Assembly: GCA_029641185.1 (NCBI GenBank) | Contig: JAPWGK010000038.1 | Span: 62,001-126,000 of the forward strand | Direction: 5' to 3' | Length of the DNA stretch: 64,000 bases | From: Pseudofabraea citricarpa | Taxonomy: Eukaryota > Ascomycota > Leotiomycetes > Helotiales > Dermateaceae | In this document: positions 2,429-46,413 of the stretch, one piece after another | How the letters are laid out: each line of letters starts with the position of its first letter | How positions within the stretch are numbered: position 1 is the stretch's first letter | Program-made: the position numbers and the translations under genes | The notes under the pieces: generated by a model | Seen by the model: the letters and a program-made list of their open reading frames with translations, nothing else | What the model was told of the DNA's origin: nothing | Databases searched by the model: none

Positions 2429-3572
2429 ATGTCTAACCTTCTGTTTCGATACTCCCAAGGACACGCGAGTATCAAAATCGCGACGCAGACAATACTAGAG
2501 GCTGCTTATATTATGGAGTCTGACTTAAAAGACTCAAACCCAGCTCTGTTGGCGGATTTGATGGAAGCTGTACAATTCAAGGTAGAGGAGGCATGTCAAT
2601 ATGCAACACAGGCGCTCAGCGCAGCCACTGAAAGTATGACCCTCTATCTCTATCTTAGATACTCTCCATGAGCATTCTGTTGACGTTCCTAAAGAAAAAC
2701 CACTGCCTCAGATTGAGAATCCAGACTCTGCTGGAAATGAAAGTGATGTCGCTGCCAACGAAGAGCCAGGTGCTCCAAAGTCCAAGAGCAGGTAAGCTTA
2801 CTACAAAACCTCCCTGGATGTTACGTATACTGATAATTTCATGTACTACAGGATCTCATTTGAGTTGCCTTTAATGATCATGCCGACCGACAGAGATGAA
2901 GATAGTCATTTATTTATCATGGTCAATGATGCCTCCATCGTCGAAAAGGGTTCAAGAACGCTATCTAACCTTTGGCACAACCCTGACGACTATTGCTTGT
3001 ACAATCCCCGCCACACTATGAATCACAATGACGATCTCAATGACAACGCAGTTATACTCTATTTCGATCGTTTCGTTGACCGTCGAAATCTTCCACAGTC
3101 GAGAACCCCACATCAGCTGAAGGATCCTGCGAAGGAAAAGGGAAAATACGATCACGCTCAATTGTGGAAAGCAATGAGATTCTTTGTTCATTTCGTCAAC
3201 GGGAAAATGGACATGGTGATTGAAGGACAACTTGATAAGGAATTATATCTCGCATTCGGCCGATGGATGCGTGTTCGAGACCCAACGAGGTATGCCAGTG
3301 TTGTTGAGAGCTGTACAGTGGGAGAAGGAAATGAGATTGATGGTCCTAGCAATGATGGTGCTGATGATACTAGCGATAACGCTGGAGATCATGTTAGCCG
3401 TGTTAGTGATAATGATGGTGGCGATGATGATAATAATGGTGGCGATGATGATAATGATGGTAGCGATGATGATAATAATGGTGGTGGCGATGATGATAAT
3501 AATGGTGGCGATGATGATAATGATGGCTGGGAAGATGATGATAGTGGGGATGATAGCAGTGACTCCGCCTGA
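2429..3572 (+). CDS. Unrecognised family, member A, with Asp-rich repeat tail
   Basis: Best model join(2429..2633,2659..2791,2852..3572), 352 aa. The order is an N-terminal helical segment, a charged linker (PKEKPLPQIENPDSAGNE), a phase-2 intron (GTAAGC at 2792, ACAG at 2850-2851), a C-terminal domain of about 140 aa, then an Asp/Asn/Gly repeat tail. The C-terminal domain shares NPDDYCLYNPRHT, YFDRFVDRR and LKDPAKEKGKY with member C at 39596 (NPDDISVYDPTNT, LKDPVKERNKY). The first junction is odd: keeping frame needs removal of only 25 nt (2634-2658), shorter than usual fungal introns. A 64-nt intron from a weak donor at 2595 is the alternative, and a real frameshift is a third possibility. 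Function and location are unknown; I do not recognise the domain. Confidence 0.6.
3417..3531 (+). repeat. 21-bp coding repeat (Asp/Asn/Gly) in member A
   Basis: About five tandem units of 21 bp encode GGDDDNN or GGDDDND variants; one unit carries an extra GGT codon. They form an acidic, probably disordered C-terminal tail. Between-unit differences are mostly AAT/GAT (Asn/Asp) switches. Confidence 0.8.
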
Positions 3573-3869: not shown

Positions 3870-4185
3870 GGTCTCATGGCCTAGTTGGAAGCCCTCCAGA
3901 CGTAGAGGTACAAAGTACCCGAACTGGCCCCAAAAAAATACACACAGAAGGAACTGTATAAAATCACAGAAGCAGCCGCAGCCTGAGCCATGTAGCAGGA
4001 GAACTGTCTAAAATCACAGAAGCATAAGTGGGCTCCACTTTGAGAACTGTATAAAATCAAACAGAAGCAGCTGCGGACTGCACCGCGAGAGGGAACTGTC
4101 ATAAATCACAGAGGAATATGTGGCCAAGGACCACCGTTAAACTCTGTATAAATATAACCACCAAAATCCTTACCATCTTTTTTTT
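3870..4185 (+). ncRNA. Possible Pol III unit (tRNA-related, SINE-like)
   Basis: A perfect A-box match (TGGCCTAGTTGG, 3877-3888) lies 7 nt into a sequence that starts like a tRNA (GGTCTCATGGCC). It is preceded by a CAACAAACAAACAAA tract of the kind seen upstream of fungal tRNA genes. A degenerate B-box-like CCGAACTGG follows at about 3919, then five short repeats, then a T8 run near 4176-4183. This is no full tRNA, since the arms do not close properly. A tRNA-derived SINE or Pol III ncRNA is the inference; the B box is weak. Confidence 0.3.
3951..4155 (+). repeat. Five degenerate 22-28 bp repeats at ~47-bp spacing
   Basis: Copies of GAACTGTATAAAATCACAG-type sequence start at 3951, 4001, 4043, 4093 and 4140 (the last is very degenerate). 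Spacings are 50, 42, 50 and 47 bp. Spacers between the copies carry CAGCCGCAG and CAGCTGCGG. They lie inside the possible Pol III unit. Confidence 0.65.
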
Positions 4186-4708
4186 CTTTTCTTCCTCTTC
4201 ACCTTTTATCTTTTTCTTCATCGCATTTTATTTCTAACATACGCGGGCTCTTCTTTTTTAAGGTGCCTTTTAGCTTTAGTTAAAACGTAACGATATATTT
4301 ATTCTTCTTTCTCGCTTAAATTCGCTTACCCCTTTATTTACAAGAGTTCTTCCCTAATTCACTTATTTACCTAATTAATTAGTGTATCTTATCGTGACCT
4401 TTTTATAACATGCAGAATCAGAACTAGACACCAGGTGGCGGTATATAAACGAGTATTCTTCTTCTTTAATCCACTCTTCAACCTGCTGCACAACCTGATA
4501 CTCTATATACCTTATACCGATCTGGAGCTTTCTTCAGGTCACATGCGGCCTAGCTAGGCATGAAGTTAACACTCTTCAAGGTACATAGCTCCCTATCAAG
4601 GTGTAGAAGTAAAGTTTATTTCATTGCATCATATACTACCGAAAGTAAAGAGTCTCGACTCCACTACCGTACCCCAGATTAAACGCCTCCAGATCCAATT
4701 TTCCTTCC

Positions 4709-10808: not shown

Positions 10809-11123
10809 GTTTTTCTTGTTCAGACTGATCCTGTTATTTTGTTGGAGGGATTTGATCTATGTGGTGTTATATAAGGTGGGTTGAGTTAGGGTTTGGTTTT
10901 TGAAAAGGCAGAAAACTTTGGCGAGAAAAAATTCAGATAAGGAAATTGATATTAGGAAGGGAAAAAAAGAGGAAGGTGTCAAGCGAGTCGCTTGGGTTTT
11001 AGAGGGGGGGGGAGGAAATAAAAAAGGTAAGGAAGGATAACGGAGAGGAAATTCTAAAAGATTTGAATCCTGAAAGATAAAAGAAGAATTATTTATCGAA
11101 GCAAAAAAGAAACAAAAAGAAAT

Positions 11124-11224
11124 TCCGAAACGGGGAATTGAACCCCGGTCTCCCGCGACCTGTTAGAAACCTTGGAAGGGGAACTATTGAGAGGCGGAAA
11201 TGCTAGCCACTACACCATTTCGGA
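11124..11224 (-). tRNA. tRNA-Glu (CUC), second copy, intron-containing
   Basis: Same mature sequence as the copy at 10695 except for the acceptor stem (TCCGAAA / TTTCGGA), where both strands have changed so that pairing is kept. The intron after position 37 is about 30 nt and differs from that of the first copy. A TTTTTC tract follows on the minus strand. Confidence 0.93.
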
Positions 11225-14449: not shown

Positions 14450-15957
14450 AAGAATGAGCCTATCTTACCTCCGATATACCTGGGAAGCACTGTCCTTAAC
14501 CCAATCTTTATATCAGCATTGGGGGCAGCAAGAGGTGCAAAAAGCGACATTGATAGGCTGCAGCCGATGGGATGTAATGCTGAGGAGCCTCAGTGTATGA
14601 GGATGAGAGAGAAGATACTCCATGAATCTTTAGTTGAGCGGAGCCACGAACAAAAACATTCAGGGGAGCTTTAGATATACTAGTTGAGGTGTATTTCTGC
14701 AGGTATGAAGTGTATTCGAGTATGAATAAATTTCTTATCAACTTCACCTGCACCAACATCAAACAACGGAATTCAATCACTCATTTCGTAATATAATAGT
14801 CGCAGCTTTCCCTTATATACCAGAATGTTTTATACTAGCTCCAGTTTACAGAAAGACAATACTATACCGTGGGAGCCTTAGCTTGTATGTCAACACCCGA
14901 TGGAGGTACCCGCCTATCCTAAATTAGCTGCTAATCCACCAAAATCAAAATATCCTGGTACTTGAATCTTTTGATTATAGTGATCCTAAGTCTAGCTAAT
15001 TCTAATTCTTTTTATCTATAACATAAAATGTCCGAATGACTTCAATCTTGATAGAATATATGAGTAGGTAATATTATAAGTGTCAGGATAAGCTCAGCCC
15101 GAATACTAAGCGATCACCTGATCCGCATGAGGTTATATAATAATTTAAAGATTTCGTACAAGGTTTAATCATGATACTAGCTCTCCTAATCTTATTATTA
15201 AATACTTAAAGTTAGGGTTAAATAACTAGTAGCTCTCTCCCTAAGAGAGAGTAAGAAACTAAAACCTGTTTATTATAATAGATTTTAATATAAAATTTAC
15301 TCCGTGTACGGTTTCTTTATTAGTGAATATTTACAGAGCTTAGATACCAAGTTAGAATAATAATAAGTTATTATCTTATTATATATAGGCTTATACCAAG
15401 GCTATAATACTATGGCACAGGCTATAGCACCTATATAGCACCATACAGGTGCTATTTGATCAAGTTCAAATAGTTTAGAGTGCTATTTAAATTATTCACC
15501 GTGAGAGGAAGCAAGAGGAAGCGAGAGAAATTAAAAGCTACCTAGGTACCTACCTACCATATGACAACGAAAAAAATAAAAAAAATGAAGAAGAAGCAAC
15601 GGATATTTCTAGGGGTGGCCACCACTTATCCTATGTAGAACCGTACAGACTGTAATTGGCTGGATCTCAGAGTCTTAGAATGAACCACCGCCTTTCCTGT
15701 GCACTCTCGCAAGGTCTGCCGCCACGCTACACGCTTTATGTTTGTTTGTTACAATTTGGGTAGTTTGTTATATAAAGTACCTAGCTAGCTATCTAGGTAG
15801 GTAAGTTTGCTACAAAACCACGTGCGTTTACGTGGCTAGTGCGAATCGCTCGCTTATGTCGCTCAGATTTCAACCATAAACAACCAAACTTCCTCTAACA
15901 CAACCAACTTCCTTTAATACAACCTCAATCTCAGATTCACCTTTGAGGGCTAGCAGG
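14450..15957. other. TA-rich gene-free stretch
   Basis: No supported gene. From about 14800 to 15400 TA steps are very frequent. It contains a 39-bp hairpin repeat (15421-15459) also present at 36651. The last 150 bp are the promoter of member B. Confidence 0.5.
15421..15459 (+). repeat. 39-bp dispersed hairpin repeat, copy 1
   Basis: Contains ATAGCACC-ATACA-GGTGCTAT, a perfect 8-bp inverted repeat with a 5-nt loop. The 39-bp block differs from the copy at 36651-36689 almost only in the loop. Both copies are in the same orientation. Origin unknown; a miniature transposon remnant is possible. Confidence 0.8.
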
Positions 15958-17540
15958 ATGGATAAAGATACATTCCAGTTTGTCTGTCGTATTGAAACAG
16001 CGCTATGCTCCATCAAAGAGCGCATATTTAATGCAGCTGCAGATAATTCCATCGCAGGAAGAAGCGCGCGCGATCGTCTTGAGAGATTGATTATAGACCA
16101 TGAAGCTACCTCGAAAGACATTTGGCCACCGAAGCTGAAGCGTAAGAGAGAAAGTGAGCAAGAGCAAGAGCAAGAGCAAGAGCAAGCTACGAAGATCGAG
16201 TTATCAGCCCCGCGCAACGCAGATCGGTAAGCACTTTCCATGACGATATGAAAGATCTTCCGGCACTCAAAGTCTTCCCGCTACTTAAAGAAAGATCTTT
16301 TGCGACTAGAAGCCTTATCTTCACCAAATGAGTCTATTATTCAATGCTTTTCTAGTACTGAAAGGTTGTTTGGTGTTGAGAGCTTGTCTGGTACAGGAAA
16401 CACGTTTGGTAGTAGAAGCTTGTTTGGTGTTGAAAGGCTATCTGGTACTAGAAGCCTTTCAAGTACTAGACGCTTTATTATTACCAAATATATCTCTGGT
16501 ATTAAAAGCTATTTGGGTACTAAAAGCATCTCTGGCATTAAAAGCTATTTGGGCACTGAAAGTATCTCTGTCTCTGGTGCTAGAAGCTTTATTATTACCA
16601 AATGCTTCTCTAGCATTGAAAGCTATTTAGGCACTGAAAGTATCTCTGTCTCTGGTGCTAGAAGCTTTATTATTACCAAATATATCTCTGGTATTAAAAG
16701 CTGTTTAGGCACTGAAAGTATCTCTGTCTCTGGTGCTAGAAGCTTTATTATTACCAAATATATCTCTGGCATTGAAAGCTGTTTGGGTACTGAAAGTATC
16801 TCTGGTATTGAAAGCTATTTGGGCACTGAAAGTATCTCTGTCTCTGGTGCTAGAAGCTTTATTATTACCAAATGCTTCTCTGGCATTGAAAGCTGTTTGG
16901 GCACTGAAAGATCTTCTGGCACTGAAGGTCTTTCCGCCACTGGAGACTTTGTAATCACCAAAGTCTATTTCATTCCTCACAAGTCGAAAATCACTAACTA
17001 CTTTCCAGTACCAGATCATCTCCACCCGTCATGCAGCAAGCAAAACCAGAGCCAACATACAAGATCCTTGTCATGCAGAACAAAGAAATTTTTACCGAAG
17101 ACTTTCACCTCGGAGACCACAAACGCGTATGGCTGGGGCCAGAAACTCAAGTCCTCGCTGGATCAGAAGTTCTCCGTCGTTTGTTCGCGATGAAGAAGAG
17201 TGGCAATAGCCGTCTTGACGATGCAGAGGATCGATGTCTTTACGACCCGACCTACACGAAGGAACTCAAGCCCCATTATCCCAATCATACAAAGGTCATC
17301 TACTGGGACGGATTTTGCTCGGCATCGGATGAGCTGGTTGGGCCAGACTACTTCATCAGCCAAGACGAGGAAGATATGTGGATCATTTGGTTTATCTGGG
17401 CTAAGTGGCTGGGTGGCAAGCAATTCTATATCAGGGACTACTACCAAAAGCTTTGTGCGCTGGAGTTTGCCGAGAAGATGAAGCTTGATCAAGGGTTTGT
17501 CACTGCGGTTGAAGCTTTCAAGTTCCCAGAAAAGGAGTAA
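15958..17540 (+). CDS. Unrecognised family, member B, with repeat-filled giant intron
   Basis: Model join(15958..16226,17009..17540), 266 aa. Exon 1 encodes a helical segment, an NLS-like run (PPKLKRKRE) and a Glu-Gln repeat (EQEQEQEQEQ). The intron breaks the codon after base 2 (GTAAGC at 16227; TTCCAG at 17007-17008), the same phase as the domain-boundary introns of members A and C. Exon 2 carries the C-terminal domain (DRCLYDPTYT, KVIYWDGFC), more divergent than between A and C. The intron is 782 nt against the usual 50-110 and is largely filled by an 18-bp minisatellite. Nuclear location is inferred only from the basic run. Function unknown. Confidence 0.6.
16249..16965 (+). repeat. 18-bp minisatellite, open in one frame, inside the member B intron
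   Basis: About 33 units, mostly 18 bp with four 24-bp variants, read in one frame as hexapeptides of the pattern [SRY][LFIYC][FSL][GS][TVI][EKR] (e.g. SYLGTE, YISGIK, SLFGVE). A 78-bp higher-order unit (SISVSGAR-SFIITK-YISGIK-SCLGTE type) recurs four times at about 16560-16900. The frame is free of stops from 16252 to 17193. Degenerate units extend to both ends. I place it in the intron because its reading frame does not join exon 2 in phase. Confidence 0.85.
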
Positions 17541-36144: not shown

Positions 36145-37136
36145 GATTGGCCTCTAGAGAAACCGACTTTGCAATATAGCATAGCTTTCAGTCATGTAAT
36201 TTTGATTGGATATTATACCTGTTTATTAAATATATAAAATAGTTAATATATGTTGATGATTGGTTATATTCCTAGGCAGTATACCTGAAAAGTTCGGGCA
36301 TACAACATTCATCAGAAAGAGGATTTCTGTTTTTCAAAAAGTTAAATACCACAAGAATTTGAACTGGATCATGTGAATTAAATTGTGGTGTATTATGAAG
36401 GTAAGATGGGAAGAATGCAGAACAGAACATAAAAAAAGAGAAAGACTGGCAAAGGCAGTATAAAGCCCGTCGGCAAACCGTGTTTACTCAAACCCAAGCG
36501 ACCAGTATATCATGATTTATGACACAGTGCCCCAATATCAAAAGCTTTCATACATCAAGCTATTATTTTGTTCGCTGGAATTTTAGATTTGGCAGAAACC
36601 AACATCTACTTAGTACAATCCTTCTCCATAATATTAATTTGTATTGACGGGCTATAGCACCTATATAGCACCCTGTAGGTGCTATTTGAGGAACTAGTCG
36701 TTCTTATTGATACTACTAACTGACGCTAAGATAAAAACCAACATCCAATATCCCCTCATTAGTGCATAGCTTGGCTTGCGAACGATCTTGGCGCCTTATA
36801 CTCTTGGCGCAAAAGCCGAAGTACCAATTGCAGAACTTGCCCTCTTATTTTGTTGGTGTTGGATGATATCACATGACCTAAGAAGGCAGGTCGTTGTGGT
36901 AATTTTGCCTACTTCGTAAACGGGGGCTGATAACCTCTTCTCACCCTCTTGGCTCTCTGCATGCCAAGATTACGGTTCCGTGGCCCGCCTTAAAGCTTCC
37001 ACTGCCTGCATCTAATGTGCTAATTATTGAGCAGTACAAAGGTCTGATCCAACGCCGCGTAACCAGACGCCTTACCGCTTCGCACCCCATTGTTCCCACA
37101 ACTCCATCGGCATCTCCTACGAGACAATCAGAAATA
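36145..37136. other. Intergenic region with dispersed repeat
   Basis: No gene supported. Contains copy 2 of the 39-bp hairpin repeat. Confidence 0.5.
36651..36689 (+). repeat. 39-bp dispersed hairpin repeat, copy 2
   Basis: Contains ATAGCACC-CTGTA-GGTGCTAT. Arms are identical to those of the copy at 15421-15459 while the loop differs, and flanking sequence is unrelated. Confidence 0.8.
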
Positions 37137-39595: not shown

Positions 39596-40943
39596 ATGAG
39601 TGAAGCCCCGGCTCTCATTCTCTACGACGTGTGGGAGGCACTCGAAGCAATTGGCCAGGATATGTTCAATGCCGTTCGAAACATCGACTACTGCGACACT
39701 CTCTCCAATCTAGTCGACTCCTGCCACCGCGACCTCGTTGAAACATCAACTGAGATCCGGGAGAAGATTCAATTGGCGCAGATCTTAGCAGTGGAACTAA
39801 AGGAAGAGACCGGTAGTTATGTCGACGTGGTCAAGAGAAAAGCTGCCGAAGAGCGAAAAGTTACCGAAGGAAAACCCATTGAGAGCGCAAAGATTCAGTT
39901 GAAGGAGCTGAGGGAGGCCAGAGCTGCGCGCGCTATCGAGACATCAACGGCTAGACGTATGGCGGAGTTAAAGGACGAAATACGGGACACAGCGAATAAA
40001 AGATTCGATATGTATGACGAACTGGAGGAAGCACAGTCAGCGACTCGCAAGGCGGCCGAGGATTCCAAAGTAGCTCAACAAGAGAAGGACGCTGCTCTTC
40101 TCTTAAGCCAAAAGGCTGCTGCGGATTTGAAAGTAGCTCAACAAGAGAAGGAAGCTGCTCTTCTCTTAAGCCAAAAGGCTGCTGCGGATTTGAAAGTAGC
40201 TCAACAAGAGAAGGAATCTGCTCTTCTCTTAAGCCAAAAGGCTGCTGCGGATTTGAAAGCTGCAAAAGAGGACAGAGAGGCTGCTGTTTTGGCCACTCGC
40301 AAGGCAGCTGAAATCCATAAGGCATATGAAGCACCAAAAGAATCGGTCCCTAAGCGCAAAGCCGAAGTACAGAACGAAGCTCAACTCCTTGCCAAAAAGC
40401 CTAAGCTCGAAGAGCAAAAGTGAGTCGCTATCTTCTCCACTGTCCCCATGACGAATACTGATGATTCCTTTTAGGGCACACCCTCTCAAGGACGCACCTA
40501 TCTTTATATTGAAGAACGAAGACGACGATAGCAACATGATCATAGCTCCAGCCGAGGCACAGCTTTTGAGTGTTAGCAACCTGCTCAAGCGAATGTTCCA
40601 GAATCCGGATGACATCTCTGTCTACGATCCTACTAATACTCGAAACCCCAAAAACGACTTCACTGATGGCCAGAGATATGTCTTTTTCGAGAAATTGATT
40701 GCGAGAGAGAACAAAACTGTGGGCGGCGATCATATCTTGAAAGACCCCGTCAAAGAGCGAAATAAGTATGGTAAGAAGGAGATGTTTGCAACTATGGAGA
40801 TCTTTATCTATTGGTTGACAAATGATGAGATTATTCGGATCGATACACGTCATCAACGCACCAGGGCTCTTAAATTGGCCGAGTTTTTGGAGGTTTCCCC
40901 TAGATGTGGCTTCCAAGCTGCGTTGGAAAGTCTGAAACTTTGA
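39596..40943 (+). CDS. Unrecognised family, member C, with coiled-coil repeats
   Basis: Model join(39596..40419,40475..40943), 430 aa. Residues 1-160 are helical, ~155-245 a coiled coil with three near-identical 21-aa repeats (KVAQQEKEAALLLSQKAAADL plus 2 variants), then an NLS-like segment (PKRKAE...KKPKLEEQK). A 55-nt phase-2 intron precedes the C-terminal domain (DAPIFILKNEDDDSN, NLLKRMFQNPDD, VYDPTNT, YVFFEKLIAREN, LKDPVKERNKYGKKEMF). Intron phase and place match members A and B. It is the clearest intact member. Function unknown; a nuclear coiled-coil protein is the inference. The structured repeat array starts about 390 bp downstream. Confidence 0.75.
40067..40318 (+). repeat. 63-bp coding repeat in member C
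   Basis: Three near-perfect 63-bp units (40067-40129, 40130-40192, 40193-40255) and one degenerate unit (40256-40318). Differences among the three are one or two bases in the codons after QQEK (DA / EA / ES), which indicates recent expansion. Confidence 0.9.
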
Positions 40944-41330
40944 AATTAAGTGGCTATAACGCAAGCTGGTCTGATTTCGGGTCTGGGGTTTGTGTTATTG
41001 TGCTATTGCAGATGGATTGTTTTCGGGGTTCTCTACTCAGCTGCATACTAAGGAAGCTTAAGAGAGACTGGAACTGGCATGAGTTGCGGCCATGGTTTTG
41101 TGTTATTTTAGAATAGTAACTTGCACCTTCGGTCAGTTGTTGCACAATGCAAAAGCCCATCTCTCAAGAAAACTTTCCAGCCTACTTGAAAGAATAGTAA
41201 CAACCTTTAATATACTGTGACGTGTAAAATTCATTTGAATGGTAGGTGAACAATTCTTTGTAGTATGCGGAGTCTCGTAGACCTACGATATATATTAAAT
41301 TCATTAAAACATAGCAAATAAACATGAAAC

Positions 41331-41430
41331 GTGTAGTGTGTCGGGCCTCGCGGTTTTCGGCCAAAGGCGGTTATCAATTCTAGACCCTGGTAGCCAGCTG
41401 ATTCCATCCCGGTATAAAGCGGCACTACAT
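41331..41430 (+). ncRNA. Structured tandem repeat, copy 1
   Basis: Closing stem 41331-41338 (GTGTAGTG) with 41423-41430 (CACTACAT), one G-U pair. Central hairpin GGTTATCA / TGGTAGCC (41369-41376 / 41388-41395) with loop ATTCTAGACCC. The GCTG/CAGC helix present in copies 2-4 is broken here. A T12 run follows at 41474. This is the most divergent copy. Confidence 0.5.
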
Positions 41431-41620
41431 AGGATATCGTGGCCACAAATATACCCGCTGTTTCCTTGTTCTGCTTTTTTTTTTTCTTTTTTTCTCCAAT
41501 TACCTCTTTTTGTGTCCTTTTTCGTGTTTACCTATTAGCGGGTTTTCGTTTCGCCTCTCCGTGCTAAGAGGGAGATGGTAGCTGCTATATATATTAAGTT
41601 GAGCTAAATTGCCCAACAAA

Positions 41621-41720
41621 CATGTAGTATGCGGCCTTGCGGATCACGCAGAAAAGGCGGCTATCAATTCTAGACCCTGATAGCCAGCTGAATACAGCCG
41701 GTATAAAGCGGTACTACATG
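41621..41720 (+). ncRNA. Structured tandem repeat, copy 2
   Basis: Closing stem of 9 bp, CATGTAGTA (41621-41629) with TACTACATG (41712-41720). Central hairpin GGCTATCA / TGATAGCC (41659-41666 / 41678-41685). Also GCCTT / AAGGC (41634-41638 / 41654-41658) and GCTG-AATA-CAGC (41687-41698). T7 and T6 runs follow at 41784-41798. Confidence 0.55.
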
Positions 41721-41896
41721 AGACAACGTGGCCACAAGTCTATCTCTCTCTCTATACATACCTGGGTATATACCTTCTAATTCTTTTTTTGCTTTTTTCT
41801 TTCTTTCGTAACTTTCCCCCTCGCTTATTCCTTCGTGCCGAGAGACAGCAACCACCTCCCAGCTATATATCAAGTTAAGCTAAATTATCTAACAAA

Positions 41897-41998
41897 CATG
41901 TAATATGTCGAGCCTCGCGGATCACACAGAAAAGGCGGCTATCAATTCTAGACCCTGGTAGCCAGCTGAATACAGCCGGTACAAAGCGGTATTACATG
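41897..41998 (+). ncRNA. Structured tandem repeat, copy 3
   Basis: Closing stem CATGTAATA (41897-41905) with TATTACATG (41990-41998): relative to copy 2 a G-C pair has become A-U with both strands changed. Central hairpin GGCTATCA / TGGTAGCC (41937-41944 / 41956-41963). T5 and T6 runs follow at 42052-42064. Confidence 0.55.
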
Positions 41999-42187
41999 AG
42001 ACGATATGGCCACCAGTCTGTCAATCAAAGCTACCTGGGCCTCTGATTACCTTTTTGCTTTTTTGTAACATTCCCCCCTTCGCTTGTGCGTTCGTTCGTT
42101 CGTACCCAGAGTTCCTCTCTACCTCCTTCGCGAAAGCAAGGAAGGGTATCTATCTATCTACCTACTTAGGCAAAGTGCCAAGCAAAG

Positions 42188-42290
42188 CATGCAGTGTGAC
42201 GGGCCTCGCGGGATAAAACAGAAAAGGCAGCTACCAATTCTAGACCCTGGTAGCTAGCTGATTACAGCCGGTATAAAGCGGCTCTGCATG
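42188..42290 (+). ncRNA. Structured tandem repeat, copy 4
   Basis: Closing stem CATGCAG (42188-42194) with CTGCATG (42284-42290): a U-A pair has become C-G with both strands changed. Central hairpin AGCTACCA / TGGTAGCT (42229-42236 / 42248-42255): the outer G-C is now A-U and the sixth pair C-G. T5 runs follow at 42341 and 42353. Confidence 0.55.
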
Positions 42291-43157
42291 GGGATAATGT
42301 GGCCACGATTCTATCCCTCAACTGCGTCGGCATAGTTACCTTTTTGCTGATTCTTTTTGCTGTTCTTTTGTTCCCATGCTGTTTGTTGTGCCTTTGTGGT
42401 TGCGCGCTCCTCGGTTATTCACCAGTTAAGCGAGGCGCCTGCGCGATAGCTAATGATAGCAAGCAAGCAAGCAACATTATTACACCGCGCTGGTATACAG
42501 CACCAGAGGCTATCTCATATCATACGAAGGCCTGAAATAGGTTGTGTGACTTGATTGTCTTGGTGCTTGAAGAAAAGACAGAAGACTTCTGTAATGGAGT
42601 TGATGATGATATTTACTTGCGTCCAGCGGGTTCAGTTGAAAGACTGACTGCCCTGTGGCCGCCCGAAGGGCATGGGGACGTGCTAAGCTAGGGGATTATA
42701 TACATATAGTAGGGCCTTGGAAAGCATTCCATGCTTATGCGTGGCATAGAGCCGTGTGGCTGTAATCCTCCCCCGAGCCCCGACAGGTGGGGTGGTTGGA
42801 GGAAATGACGTAAATACAGGTAGGGGTTCTGGCGCGCTTTCCGTCGTGTTGTAACATCCATCTTCTTGCATTCTCAATTGAATGGAAGTGCACCAAGATT
42901 CTTAAGATAAGAAGGAGATGCGCGTATCTAACCAAGGAGGTAGGTCAGAACGGCGACCTTGGCAAATGTAGACTTGAGCACCTGACGAACAAGAAGATGG
43001 AGATGGTACAGCTTTAGGAGCATAAAGAGGGCTTTTATTATTGACTAGGGTATCATGTTCCTCAAATCTAAACTATTGTGTACCGACGAAGCAAGGTTGC
43101 CATAAAAATCGCACACAGGGTGCGCATGCTACCTGCGCGGCTTCATCAGTGCCGAGA

Positions 43158-45341
43158 TTATCGTCTCGGACTCGCCTTAGCCAGCCACTCTAGAATCCTC
43201 AGCGTCGCCACGCGAGGCACGTCCTTATATCTCTCGGCATCATACGTATCATCAATGGCTCTAGCAAGACGCTGCGCCTTCACGATGGTGAGTCTCTTTA
43301 CATCAGCCCAATGTTCCCTCTCCACAAACGCATCTGCCTCGGTCGCCAGTTCGAGTCGTTTCTTGCGCAGAGCAGGATCGTCAGCCTTTTCAGCGACGCA
43401 GAGCGTACATGTGCATTCGAAGCCCCAGGTGTTCATCAAGGCCGTCTGTCTTGCGCCGTAATCGCCCGACCAGTCATAGCTGATGAAGATCTCTTCGCCT
43501 GCGCTGAGGGACCGAGTGGCTCGGAGTACCATCAGGTCGCCGACGTGTTCTTTCTTGGCGTTCGCAATGCAGGAGTGGTTGATGTACGCAGCCCAGACCC
43601 ACAAGCCGGTGCTTGGGTTCTGTACACCCTCCTCGCCATATTGGTTACCCAACCCAAAGGCGTTGCGGGACATGATATCATGTACGCGAAAGGTATCGAC
43701 GACCGCGCCCTCGTCAGTTCTCGACACATTCTTTCCATCGCCGTGATAATCGCCATAGAGATTAAGGACCTTCTCAATCTGGGAGGGATTGCTAAGGAGC
43801 TTTTGGACGATTGCTTTGCTCAACCCGACGGGTGACATTCTGATCTTGTCATCTCGCACGTCGTATGTCATTGCCGCCAAAGCATCGTTTTCATGTCCCC
43901 AGACCACACAGAAAGCTTTCTCGCACATGACAATCTCGCCAGCGGGTATTTGACGAGTTGCGAATAAGCCGCGTCCTCGTCCGACACTATCTTTGACCTC
44001 GGTGTTGTTGATGAAGTTTGCAGCGTCGACCCGTGGACGAACTCGAGACAGACCAGCTTTGATCTTCTTGAAGTTATAAGTTCCCGTCTCTTGCTCGCGG
44101 AGACGCACGTCAATATTTCGCAGATAAACACTCGCGGTCTTGTCCCCGGGCATGAGCTTCTGTTGCTCCTCAAAGAAACCCTTGGCTTCCTGGTATTCGC
44201 CGAGGTTGTATGCAGCGCAACCGGCACGGAAATTGGCCTTGCTGTCGAGCTCTTTGGAGCGATCATTGTCTCTGCCGATCAAAGAGGCTTTTGCGTCCAA
44301 CTTTGCTTCATCTAGCTGATACAGTAGTAGGTTGACATGGGCACGATTGCGAAAAATGTCTCGGGTTAGGTCGCCAATAGTATCAGATGCAGCATCTTGC
44401 CGGGCGATCTTCAGGGCTTCAGTGTATTTTGCGTGGGCTAGTGGTAGGTCCTGTTTCTTGAGTGCAATGTTTCCCTGGTCTTTGCAAGTCCTTGCCTTTT
44501 TCTCTACCGCTGCTGAGTCCTCAGCATGGCCATTCTCAGTATGTCCGTTCCCAGTGTCATCTTTTCCACCCTGACCATTCGAAGTGCGACCATTCAAAGC
44601 GTGACCGTTGTCGGTATGTCCATTCTCAGCATTTCCATTTTCAGTGCGACCGTTCTCAGTGTTTCCATTCGTAGTGCGACTATTCGAAGTATGTCCATTC
44701 TCAGTGTGTCCATTCCCAGTCTGGCCATTGACTCCATTCACTCCATTGGTCGAAGTCAAACTGGTATATGCCGTCTCATCCCCACAGACAACCAAATCTG
44801 AAGGATGATCGATCCGAAGGGTAGCTTCGCCTTGATCGGTAAGAGTGAAGTAAGGTTCCTTGATGACAAAGACAGATGCCGACTCCAAGACATCCTCGCC
44901 GTGTCTCGATTTATGCAGATACACCTCCAAGCGTTCGGTGTCCCCCTTTTCATCCTGCACCATAGTCCACGACCTAGCGGCGAGAGTGACTACTGGGCTG
45001 ACACGCTTAAGAGCGAGCCGACGGCCATGATGATGAATATCGATTCGAAGCTCGGCGAGAGTGATGGGCTGCAGGTCTTGGAGTGAGATGATGCATGGCG
45101 GGTAGGGCTGGCCTATACCCAGAGCTGGTAGAGAACCGGCCTGCTCTTTGGTCGAAGTACCCATGTCAGCCATCAGAGATGCACCGGTCGCTTGGCTGAT
45201 GGCGTCTTTCGAGTCTCTTGGATCCCGCGCATGGCCTTCAAGCTTGGAGCATTTCTTCAGCCTGTCCTTGACGGTATTTCGGATGCGATCGCTCTCTTCC
45301 TCGGTCAAGAAGACCGTGTTTGCATTGTTCTGAGAAGTCAT
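43158..45341 (-). CDS. TPR-SET domain protein
   Basis: Intronless, 727 aa from ATG at 45341 (MTSQNNANTVFLTEEESDRI); the frame stays open to an ATG at 45623, but that extension is Ser/Arg-rich and unlike the family. The order is an N-terminal region, a 13-unit Asn-Gly pentapeptide repeat, TPR-like helices (KDQGNIALKKQDLPLAHAKY), then SET (GRGRGLFATRQIPAGEIVMC, WVWAAYINHSCIANAKK, GEEIFISYDW) with a post-SET Cys cluster (GFECTCTLCV). NHSC and the Tyr after it form the SAM/lysine site, as in SMYD-like methyltransferases. The target is unknown. It marks the left border of the tailoring-gene run. Confidence 0.88.
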   Translation of the reverse strand: MTSQNNANTVFLTEEESDRIRNTVKDRLKKCSKLEGHARDPRDSKDAISQATGASLMADMGTSTKEQAGSLPALGIGQPYPPCIISLQDLQPITLAELRIDIHHHGRRLALKRVSPVVTLAARSWTMVQDEKGDTERLEVYLHKSRHGEDVLESASVFVIKEPYFTLTDQGEATLRIDHPSDLVVCGDETAYTSLTSTNGVNGVNGQTGNGHTENGHTSNSRTTNGNTENGRTENGNAENGHTDNGHALNGRTSNGQGGKDDTGNGHTENGHAEDSAAVEKKARTCKDQGNIALKKQDLPLAHAKYTEALKIARQDAASDTIGDLTRDIFRNRAHVNLLLYQLDEAKLDAKASLIGRDNDRSKELDSKANFRAGCAAYNLGEYQEAKGFFEEQQKLMPGDKTASVYLRNIDVRLREQETGTYNFKKIKAGLSRVRPRVDAANFINNTEVKDSVGRGRGLFATRQIPAGEIVMCEKAFCVVWGHENDALAAMTYDVRDDKIRMSPVGLSKAIVQKLLSNPSQIEKVLNLYGDYHGDGKNVSRTDEGAVVDTFRVHDIMSRNAFGLGNQYGEEGVQNPSTGLWVWAAYINHSCIANAKKEHVGDLMVLRATRSLSAGEEIFISYDWSGDYGARQTALMNTWGFECTCTLCVAEKADDPALRKKRLELATEADAFVEREHWADVKRLTIVKAQRLARAIDDTYDAERYKDVPRVATLRILEWLAKASPRR
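44524..44745 (-). repeat. 15-bp coding repeat, pentapeptide NG(H/R/N)T(E)
   Basis: About 13 units such as NGHTE, NGRTE, NGNTE, NGHTD in the TPR-SET protein. Probably a flexible linker. Several units differ by single bases, so length variation between strains is likely. Confidence 0.85.
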
Positions 45342-46413
45342 GGCGAAGTGTATCTGTCTTACGTGCTGCGAAATCAGTGTTAGCGACGCGCTGCACGCCC
45401 GTCTGAGTGTTCTGGCTACGTGATTGCAGTTGATCCCCAATGCCGACAGGTAGTTGGGGAATCTGCGACTATTGAGTGCGATGTTGTGGCGAGATGTGCA
45501 GCTCAGACCGATTCCGTCGGCGAGGCTGCAAAAGTTGGGGTTGACGGCTGTGTAACCTGCCTGATAAGTCGTTAGGGCGGAGCTGACCTCCGATCGAGTT
45601 GTTCGCTTTACCGTCTGACTCATTCACCCGGAAACCTGGTAGAACATAAGCCCTAGAGCAGTGATGACTGGAACGGCGAATGGATTTAATCCTATTCTTC
45701 TTTTGTATCGCTTCATGTTTGTTGTTCGGGTTTTTGGGGTGGAAGTTATGAATGTTGATGATTTGTGCACTCGAAATTATGAAGAGGGATCAACTATGAA
45801 ATTCTGAATCTTCTTAGTCGGATTTGATTTCATCTATCCTTTTCTTTTTGCATGTGTTTCCCAGTCAAAGTAGCTATTGGCTATAGCCCGAACCCTACCA
45901 AGGGTCTCTATCCCCGAAACGAAACAGCTAGCTTTTGCGGTGTGAGGCTACTTCTCCTCTCCATAGTATAATATCCAGTACAAAATCAATTAATATGTTT
46001 TAACTAGAAAATCATAGCACTTAGTTATAACTTGAAACACTTAATCAAGTAGTCTACCACACAATTTCAAAATAGCTATTAACGATAGCTAGGTACGTAC
46101 CACGCCCCCTCCCCTCTTCCCCCTCGCATGCGCCTTATCAGCTTCACAGCCACACTTAATCAACGTCATATTACGGCAACAGAAGATCACCAAACGCATT
46201 ACTCTAGAATTTACAACTCGGGAATATAATTATCGAATTGAAAGACCTCAAAGAAAACATGCTACGTAGTTACAATAAGGTTATAGCCTAAGACCTTGGC
46301 CGTCTTATGACAGGCCGCTAATGGGCCGTGCCTGGTGACGTGACCTTAAATGTCAACACAATAGTGCAAACCTTCCGATCAGAAGCGTTTCAAGGTCTGT
46401 AACTGTGAACCTA

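Follow-up and report, generated by a model that had tools for sequence, protein, structure and literature searches.

The 64,000-nucleotide window analyzed in this study (G000:C32:62001-126000) comes from a genome that totals 43,985,132 bases and is split into 43 contigs. It belongs to a contig of 185,444 bases (C32), whose ends (L037, L049, and L050) are extremely AT-rich with a GC content of 15-19%, while the gene-bearing middle mostly has 37-48%. An orphan protein, designated B, is encoded at positions 40461-40943 on the plus strand, and the exon ahead of B contains an in-frame coding repeat of 63-nt units (39986-40300). A protein with TPR and SET domains is encoded at 43158-45623 on the minus strand. 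The homologues listed for the latter come from filamentous ascomycetes of several classes, including Lindgomyces, Hypoxylon, and Colletotrichum, which places the host presumably within the Pezizomycotina. An in-frame coding repeat of 15-nt units (44521-44730; Asn-Gly-rich) lies inside this gene. Between the two genes, 384 nt after the end of B, begins a tandem array of four similar cores, all on the plus strand. Copy 1 occupies 41327-41460, copy 2 occupies 41618-41749, copy 3 occupies 41894-42027, and copy 4 occupies 42185-42320. The core starts are 291, 276, and 291 nt apart, which bears out the first-pass annotation of this DNA, made from the letters only, that four plus-strand blocks recur every 276-291 bp.

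The cores are about 134 nt in length (132-136 nt) and are 73-87% identical in pairwise comparisons. Identity falls to 38-65% in the 40 nt upstream of the cores and to 28-47% in the 110-120 nt downstream; shuffled sequence gives 27-39%. The higher values in the flanks come from copies 2 and 3, and the remaining flanks are mostly near the shuffled level. Thus, conservation is concentrated in the core. Divergence is not uniform over the repeat unit as it is in a satellite, and therefore the array is unlike a drifting satellite. The loop ATTCTAGACCC, which had been described as invariant, is indeed identical in copies 1-4. Another conserved motif, GTGGCCAC, is a palindrome at the DNA level; it is present in four of the five copies known (see below), and ATGGCCAC takes its place in copy 3.

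A covariance model of copies 1-4 found a fifth, diverged core at 15597-15736 on the minus strand (28 bits, E 1.2e-6), a sequence that the model did not contain. Copy 5 is about 26 kb from the array and in the opposite orientation. By blastn, the copy 5 and copy 1 regions are 67% identical in an alignment of 193 columns that extends beyond the core on both sides; the homology with the array takes in the TATA motif upstream. In copy 5, the loop ATTCTAGACCC has an extra A inserted and one C-to-T change. A 43-nt stretch at 15417-15459 recurs at 36647-36689 with 90.7% identity, and is unrelated to the RNA copies.

Is there a sixth copy? A model of all five copies found none in the 294,261 bases searched, and the remainder of contig C32 gave no model match up to E 10. 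When the DNA of the whole genome was queried with the array, copy 3, and copy 5, nothing came back besides the array copies and copy 5 itself, and plasmids, viral contigs, and prokaryote contigs gave no match. Pattern searches of the genome gave a similar picture. The pattern TCAATTCTAGACCCTG with up to two mismatches occurs at 34 places, four of which are the array; the model was run on 26 of the 30 non-array places and scored only E 0.85 and 4.4. The pattern AAAGGCGG...AGACYCTG occurs at four places, all known copies. CCTYGCN{10,15}AAAGGCRG occurs at 12 places, namely the five known copies and seven others that are negative with the model, and TRCATN{3,14}GTGGCCAC occurs at 20 places, namely four known copies and 16 others outside the model test. 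An additional diverged copy may exist elsewhere in the genome.

Predicted fold of the core

In the consensus structure predicted by RNAalifold, the closing stem has 10 pairs, a further helix 4, and the central hairpin 8; two short helices and a hairpin on the 3′ side complete the fold. In the four-copy alignment, 95% of the cells form standard pairs. Each of copies 1-4 forms 25 of 26 consensus pairs, and copy 5 forms 20 of them. Changes on both sides were found at six of 35 pairs in the four copies; the shuffled mean is 2.6, none of 500 shuffles is as high, and only zero to two such pairs appear when the partners are slid by 1-3 columns. With the five copies, all from this single genome, pairing survives substitutions in both partners at 7 of 26 pairs; none of the 500 shuffles is as high, and the slid controls have zero to two. 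In either count, relatedness can produce an excess of this kind, and a consensus structure inferred from the very sequences under test is biased towards itself. The count of further standard pair types shows no excess over shuffles, with four copies (307 of 500 shuffles as high) or with five.

The both-side changes sit in the closing stem, the central hairpin, and the 3′ hairpin. All the compensatory pairs listed in the first-pass annotation are present in the alignment: U-A/C-G, G-C/A-U, and A-U/G-C in the closing stem, and G-C/A-U at pair 1 and U-G/U-A/C-G at pair 6 of the central hairpin. The cloverleaf-like layout proposed there is supported in part. The three elements with both-side changes covary, while the GCCT/AGGC helix has no variation among the four copies and so no covariation support, and the GCTG/CAGC helix, with no both-side change in the four copies, has none either.

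One closing-stem pair is U-G in all five copies. Since this pair would be a mismatch on the other strand, the plus strand of the array is favoured as the RNA. The fold energies are mostly ordinary. The z-scores of the plus strands of copies 1-4 are 0.65, -2.97, -0.87, and -0.32; copy 2 alone stands out as stable, and its minus strand comes close (-2.62). For copies 1-4, the consensus lies 0.2-2.8 kcal/mol above the respective best fold. When copy 5 is forced into the consensus, its energy is -16.7 kcal/mol and six of 26 pairs are broken; its best fold reaches -32.4 kcal/mol. Copy 5 may be in decay, or it may have another fold.

Sequences flanking the cores

A TATA motif of the kind used in external Pol III promoters lies 30-38 nt upstream of the core in four of the five copies: at 41289-41295 for copy 1 (38 nt before the core), 41586-41592 for copy 2 (32 nt), 41864-41870 for copy 3 (30 nt), and 15768-15774 on the minus strand for copy 5 (38 nt). 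Copy 4 has no canonical TATA upstream. No convincing internal A or B box was found in copies 1-4, with at most 6/8 and 7/9 positions matched. Downstream, runs of 5-11 T start 12-35 nt past all five cores. Copy 1 is followed by 11 T at 41475-41485, copy 2 by 7 T at 41784-41790, copy 3 by 5 T and 6 T within 42052-42064, copy 4 by two runs reaching a length of only 5 T within 42341-42358, and copy 5 by 8 T and 7 T within 15570-15585 on the minus strand. T-runs had been placed 44-64 nt past each block of the array; this agrees with a start 15-35 nt past the 134-nt core, the earlier count having been made from a shorter block.

Two Pol III-type genes of the same genome were used for comparison. The SRP RNA gene (RF01502; G000:C29:20489-20756) scores 144.8 bits, above the family cut-off. 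A likely U6 gene (G000:C2:955536-955687; L067:1440-1720) scores 33.2 bits, below the Rfam cut-off of 44; the match covers 152 bases against a 105-position model, and inserts resembling introns are seen by eye. Both genes likewise end in T-runs. The SRP RNA gene resembles the copies in having an extended TATA motif at the same upstream distance as well as the downstream T-run, but the RNAs themselves differ, as Rfam yields no SRP match at the array.

When the 26-mer upstream of the SRP RNA gene, a query chosen after the likeness had been spotted by eye, was compared with both strands of the window, the best match was the promoter of copy 2 (22 of 26 positions), followed by those of copies 3 and 1 (19 each). 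The promoter of copy 5 comes next with 18/26, tied in fourth place with two other sites. Only 60 of 127910 windows of 20 nt reach 19, and all of them come from the three best sites. For the 20-nt stretch before the core, the value of copy 2 is reached by 20 of 127910 windows, that of copies 1 and 3 by 60, that of copy 5 by 120, and that of copy 4 by 2103 (1.6%). The 24-mer upstream of U6 performed otherwise: copy 2 is among 11 listed sites tied at 16/24, and the other copies are absent from the matches listed. A promoter matrix built including these sites gives equally high scores in the AT-rich contig ends. The Pol III idea of the first-pass annotation, which was drawn from the T-runs only, gains an independent match to the SRP RNA promoter of the same genome, while the U6 upstream query does not single out the copies.

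Known RNA families

At gathering scores, Rfam has a sole match in the whole window, a tRNA at 11123-11224, which lies away from the array. When the scores were relaxed up to E 10, nothing matched copy 5, and the array had two matches, both on the opposite strand and at chance level (E 1.1 and 3.9). Known Rfam families including 5S, U6, SRP, RNase P/MRP, ribozymes, and snoRNAs do not come near threshold, and ARAGORN with bacterial settings predicts no tRNA. The original remark that no known ncRNA was recognised is upheld for Rfam at its thresholds in the array and copy 5. A description of the array RNA was not found in the parts of the open-licence literature that were covered, including those of two fungal surveys (PMC8216456, PMC5640933).

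Complementarity of the five cores to three protein-gene regions, U6, and SRP RNA (25 comparisons) is at the shuffled level with one exception. Copy 4 (the 42185-42320 core) has 11 nt complementary to the 5′ end of SRP RNA (L070, near 1500), and the maximum in 50 shuffles is 9. Copies 2 and 3 have 9 nt against the SRP 5′ end, within their own shuffled maxima, and copies 1 and 5 do not keep the complementarity. The complementarity of copy 4 to SRP RNA is probably due to chance.

Orphan proteins beside the copies

Protein B has two paralogues in the window. B1 is encoded at 17034-17537 on the plus strand, 1.3 kb from copy 5, and has 23% identity to B by blastp (E 1e-10). B2 is encoded at 2850-3572 and has 25% identity to B in a pairwise comparison (E 4e-19). 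The pairwise link between B1 and B2 is weak (E 0.008). In whole-genome searches, B found itself and B2, and B1 found only itself; a profile of the three sequences gave a marginal match outside the window in the same contig (L047:6791-8110, minus strand, E 0.0098). No homologue was found at E 0.01 in about 5.8 billion proteins, with B alone (28 candidates) or with the three-sequence alignment (1794 candidates). None of the three proteins belongs to a Pfam family, B having been searched up to E 10, and the structure prediction of B is uninformative (mean pLDDT 38.8). A BTB/POZ-like look of B is unsupported: Pfam gave nothing up to E 10, and the best PDB sequence has E 0.32 (ferredoxin reductases). 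Homology between A and A1 (N-terminal exons) was not detected either, the best value being E 0.14 with a profile that included one wrong-frame sequence.

Downstream of B2, a different tandem repeat was found at 3951-4140. It has four units of 43-50 nt starting at 3951, 4001, 4044, and 4093, and each unit consists of the common GAACTGTNTAAAATCACAGA followed by a different hairpin-forming stretch. A T-run lies at 4175-4186, and a full match to the A-box consensus lies near 3877, as at U6. The TATA-like match to the SRP RNA promoter is weak (15/26). The repeat is not detected by the array model, a model made from the repeat itself finds nothing elsewhere on the contig below E 0.7, and Rfam gives only four matches in the 3.7-4.3 kb region, all on the other strand (E 3.0-6.2).

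Thus, three paralogous orphan genes each lie near an RNA-like cassette ended by a T-run: B near the array, B1 near copy 5, and B2 near the 3951-4140 repeat. The association is suggestive, although all the pairings are on one contig and the third cassette differs in sequence. Since each of the orphan genes adjoins such a cassette, the protein may bind the RNA. The RNAs and the orphan proteins could then be one fast-evolving, co-duplicating module, for example an RNP or a toxin-like pair in which the RNA restrains the protein, although I consider this improbable.

Discussion

Judged from its sequence, the locus is probably a lineage-restricted set of tandem Pol III-type genes that encode a structured RNA. 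According to this reading, the four tandem genes and the fifth diverged relative would encode a structured non-coding RNA of about 160-175 nt made by RNA polymerase III. The length is simple arithmetic from a start about 30 nt past the TATA motif to the T-run, with the start assumed for copy 4. The TATA motif some 30 nt upstream would place TFIIIB in the manner of the SRP RNA gene of the same genome, and transcription would begin just ahead of the closing stem and halt in the T-run. It is this layout of promoter and T-run that points to transcription and to the polymerase, both of which are predictions. The RNA would fold into a long 5′ closing stem, a central hairpin with the invariant loop, and a 3′ hairpin around the conserved GTGGCCAC. 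The near-invariant unpaired stretches would be likely contacts for a protein or RNA partner, and for this reason the RNA most likely acts in trans within an RNP; the invariant loops and the short helices suggest such action. The family seems to be new in the sense that it is absent from Rfam, while its kind, a Pol III-type RNA gene, seems to be one already known. On the whole, the interpretation given in the first-pass annotation is partly supported.

Does the known biology of fungi offer a counterpart? In Neurospora, the main loci of microRNA-like small RNAs (milRNAs) are reported to be Pol III-made, ML-60218 being the Pol III inhibitor used in that report (PMC3547838). The milR-1 locus of Neurospora crassa is shown there with TATA-like elements and with marked poly-T, and neither an A box nor a B box is predicted in it (PMC3547838). 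By analogy, the layout of milR-1 may be taken as a precedent for that of the array. The array RNAs might accordingly be Pol III-made milRNA precursors that are cut by Dicer or other nucleases to leave a stable product of about 20-25 nt from a stem arm. I regard this as unlikely in spite of the shared TATA, poly-T, and lack of A/B boxes (PMC3547838), as the longest consensus helix has 10 pairs, which is short for a Dicer substrate, and conservation peaks in the loops and not in one stem arm. Compared by description only, the small RNAs of the milRNA loci come from a stem-loop, while the array RNA is predicted to be multibranched with short helices.

The cores could also work outside the Pol III system, as part of a Pol II transcript or as a DNA element (a protein-binding or boundary array) whose TATA and T-rich flanks are incidental. 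In favour of this, the AT-rich parts of the contig abound in T-rich and TATA-like stretches, no TATA motif precedes copy 4, and GTGGCCAC, kept in four of five copies with ATGGCCAC in copy 3, is palindromic as DNA. However, the match to the SRP RNA promoter is position-specific, and the paired changes include G-U pairs on one strand; this explanation has a low probability.

Satellite-like drift of a tandem duplication, in which the apparent compensation arises by chance or gene conversion, is quite unlikely. Four head-to-tail copies at regular spacing look like a satellite, only four to five sequences are at hand, and few of the folds are unusually stable. Nevertheless, the spacers, unlike the cores, are now mostly no more alike than shuffled sequence, the paired changes exceed those of all 500 shuffles, and copy 5 retains the TATA motif, the core, and the T-run outside the array. 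Selection on an RNA fold, which the first-pass annotation had preferred to satellite drift, is thus the better explanation, with conservation limited to the core, paired changes above the shuffled and slid controls, and a homologue outside the array. A SINE- or MITE-type mobile element, which the position of copy 5 on the opposite strand 26 kb off might suggest, is very unlikely, since only five copies were found and the homology of copy 5 includes the upstream TATA, which would be absent from a retroposed Pol III transcript.

The proposed Pol III-type genes may be likened to two other groups of RNAs. The human snaR-A genes are tandem and lineage-restricted. The snaR-A RNA is described as a Pol III-made non-coding RNA (PMC9151912); it belongs to another organism, and the likeness to the array RNA is one of description only. 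The conserved intergenic structures 1-4 of fungi (Gao, Jones and Rivas 2021, PMC8216456) are presented as structured RNAs of Pezizomycotina that stand alone and have no assigned function. By description, three of them have an H box and a single hairpin (PMC8216456), while the array RNA is predicted to be branched.

If the array is transcribed, it provides a structured Pol III RNA family that is missing from Rfam and seemingly confined to a narrow fungal lineage. The known fungal Pol III RNAs are mostly ancient housekeeping RNAs. If the proposed reading is true, a multi-copy family this young, with its loops conserved, would illustrate the way in which new structured RNAs originate. As it has been duplicated next to an orphan protein family, a partnership of RNA and protein can be tested directly.
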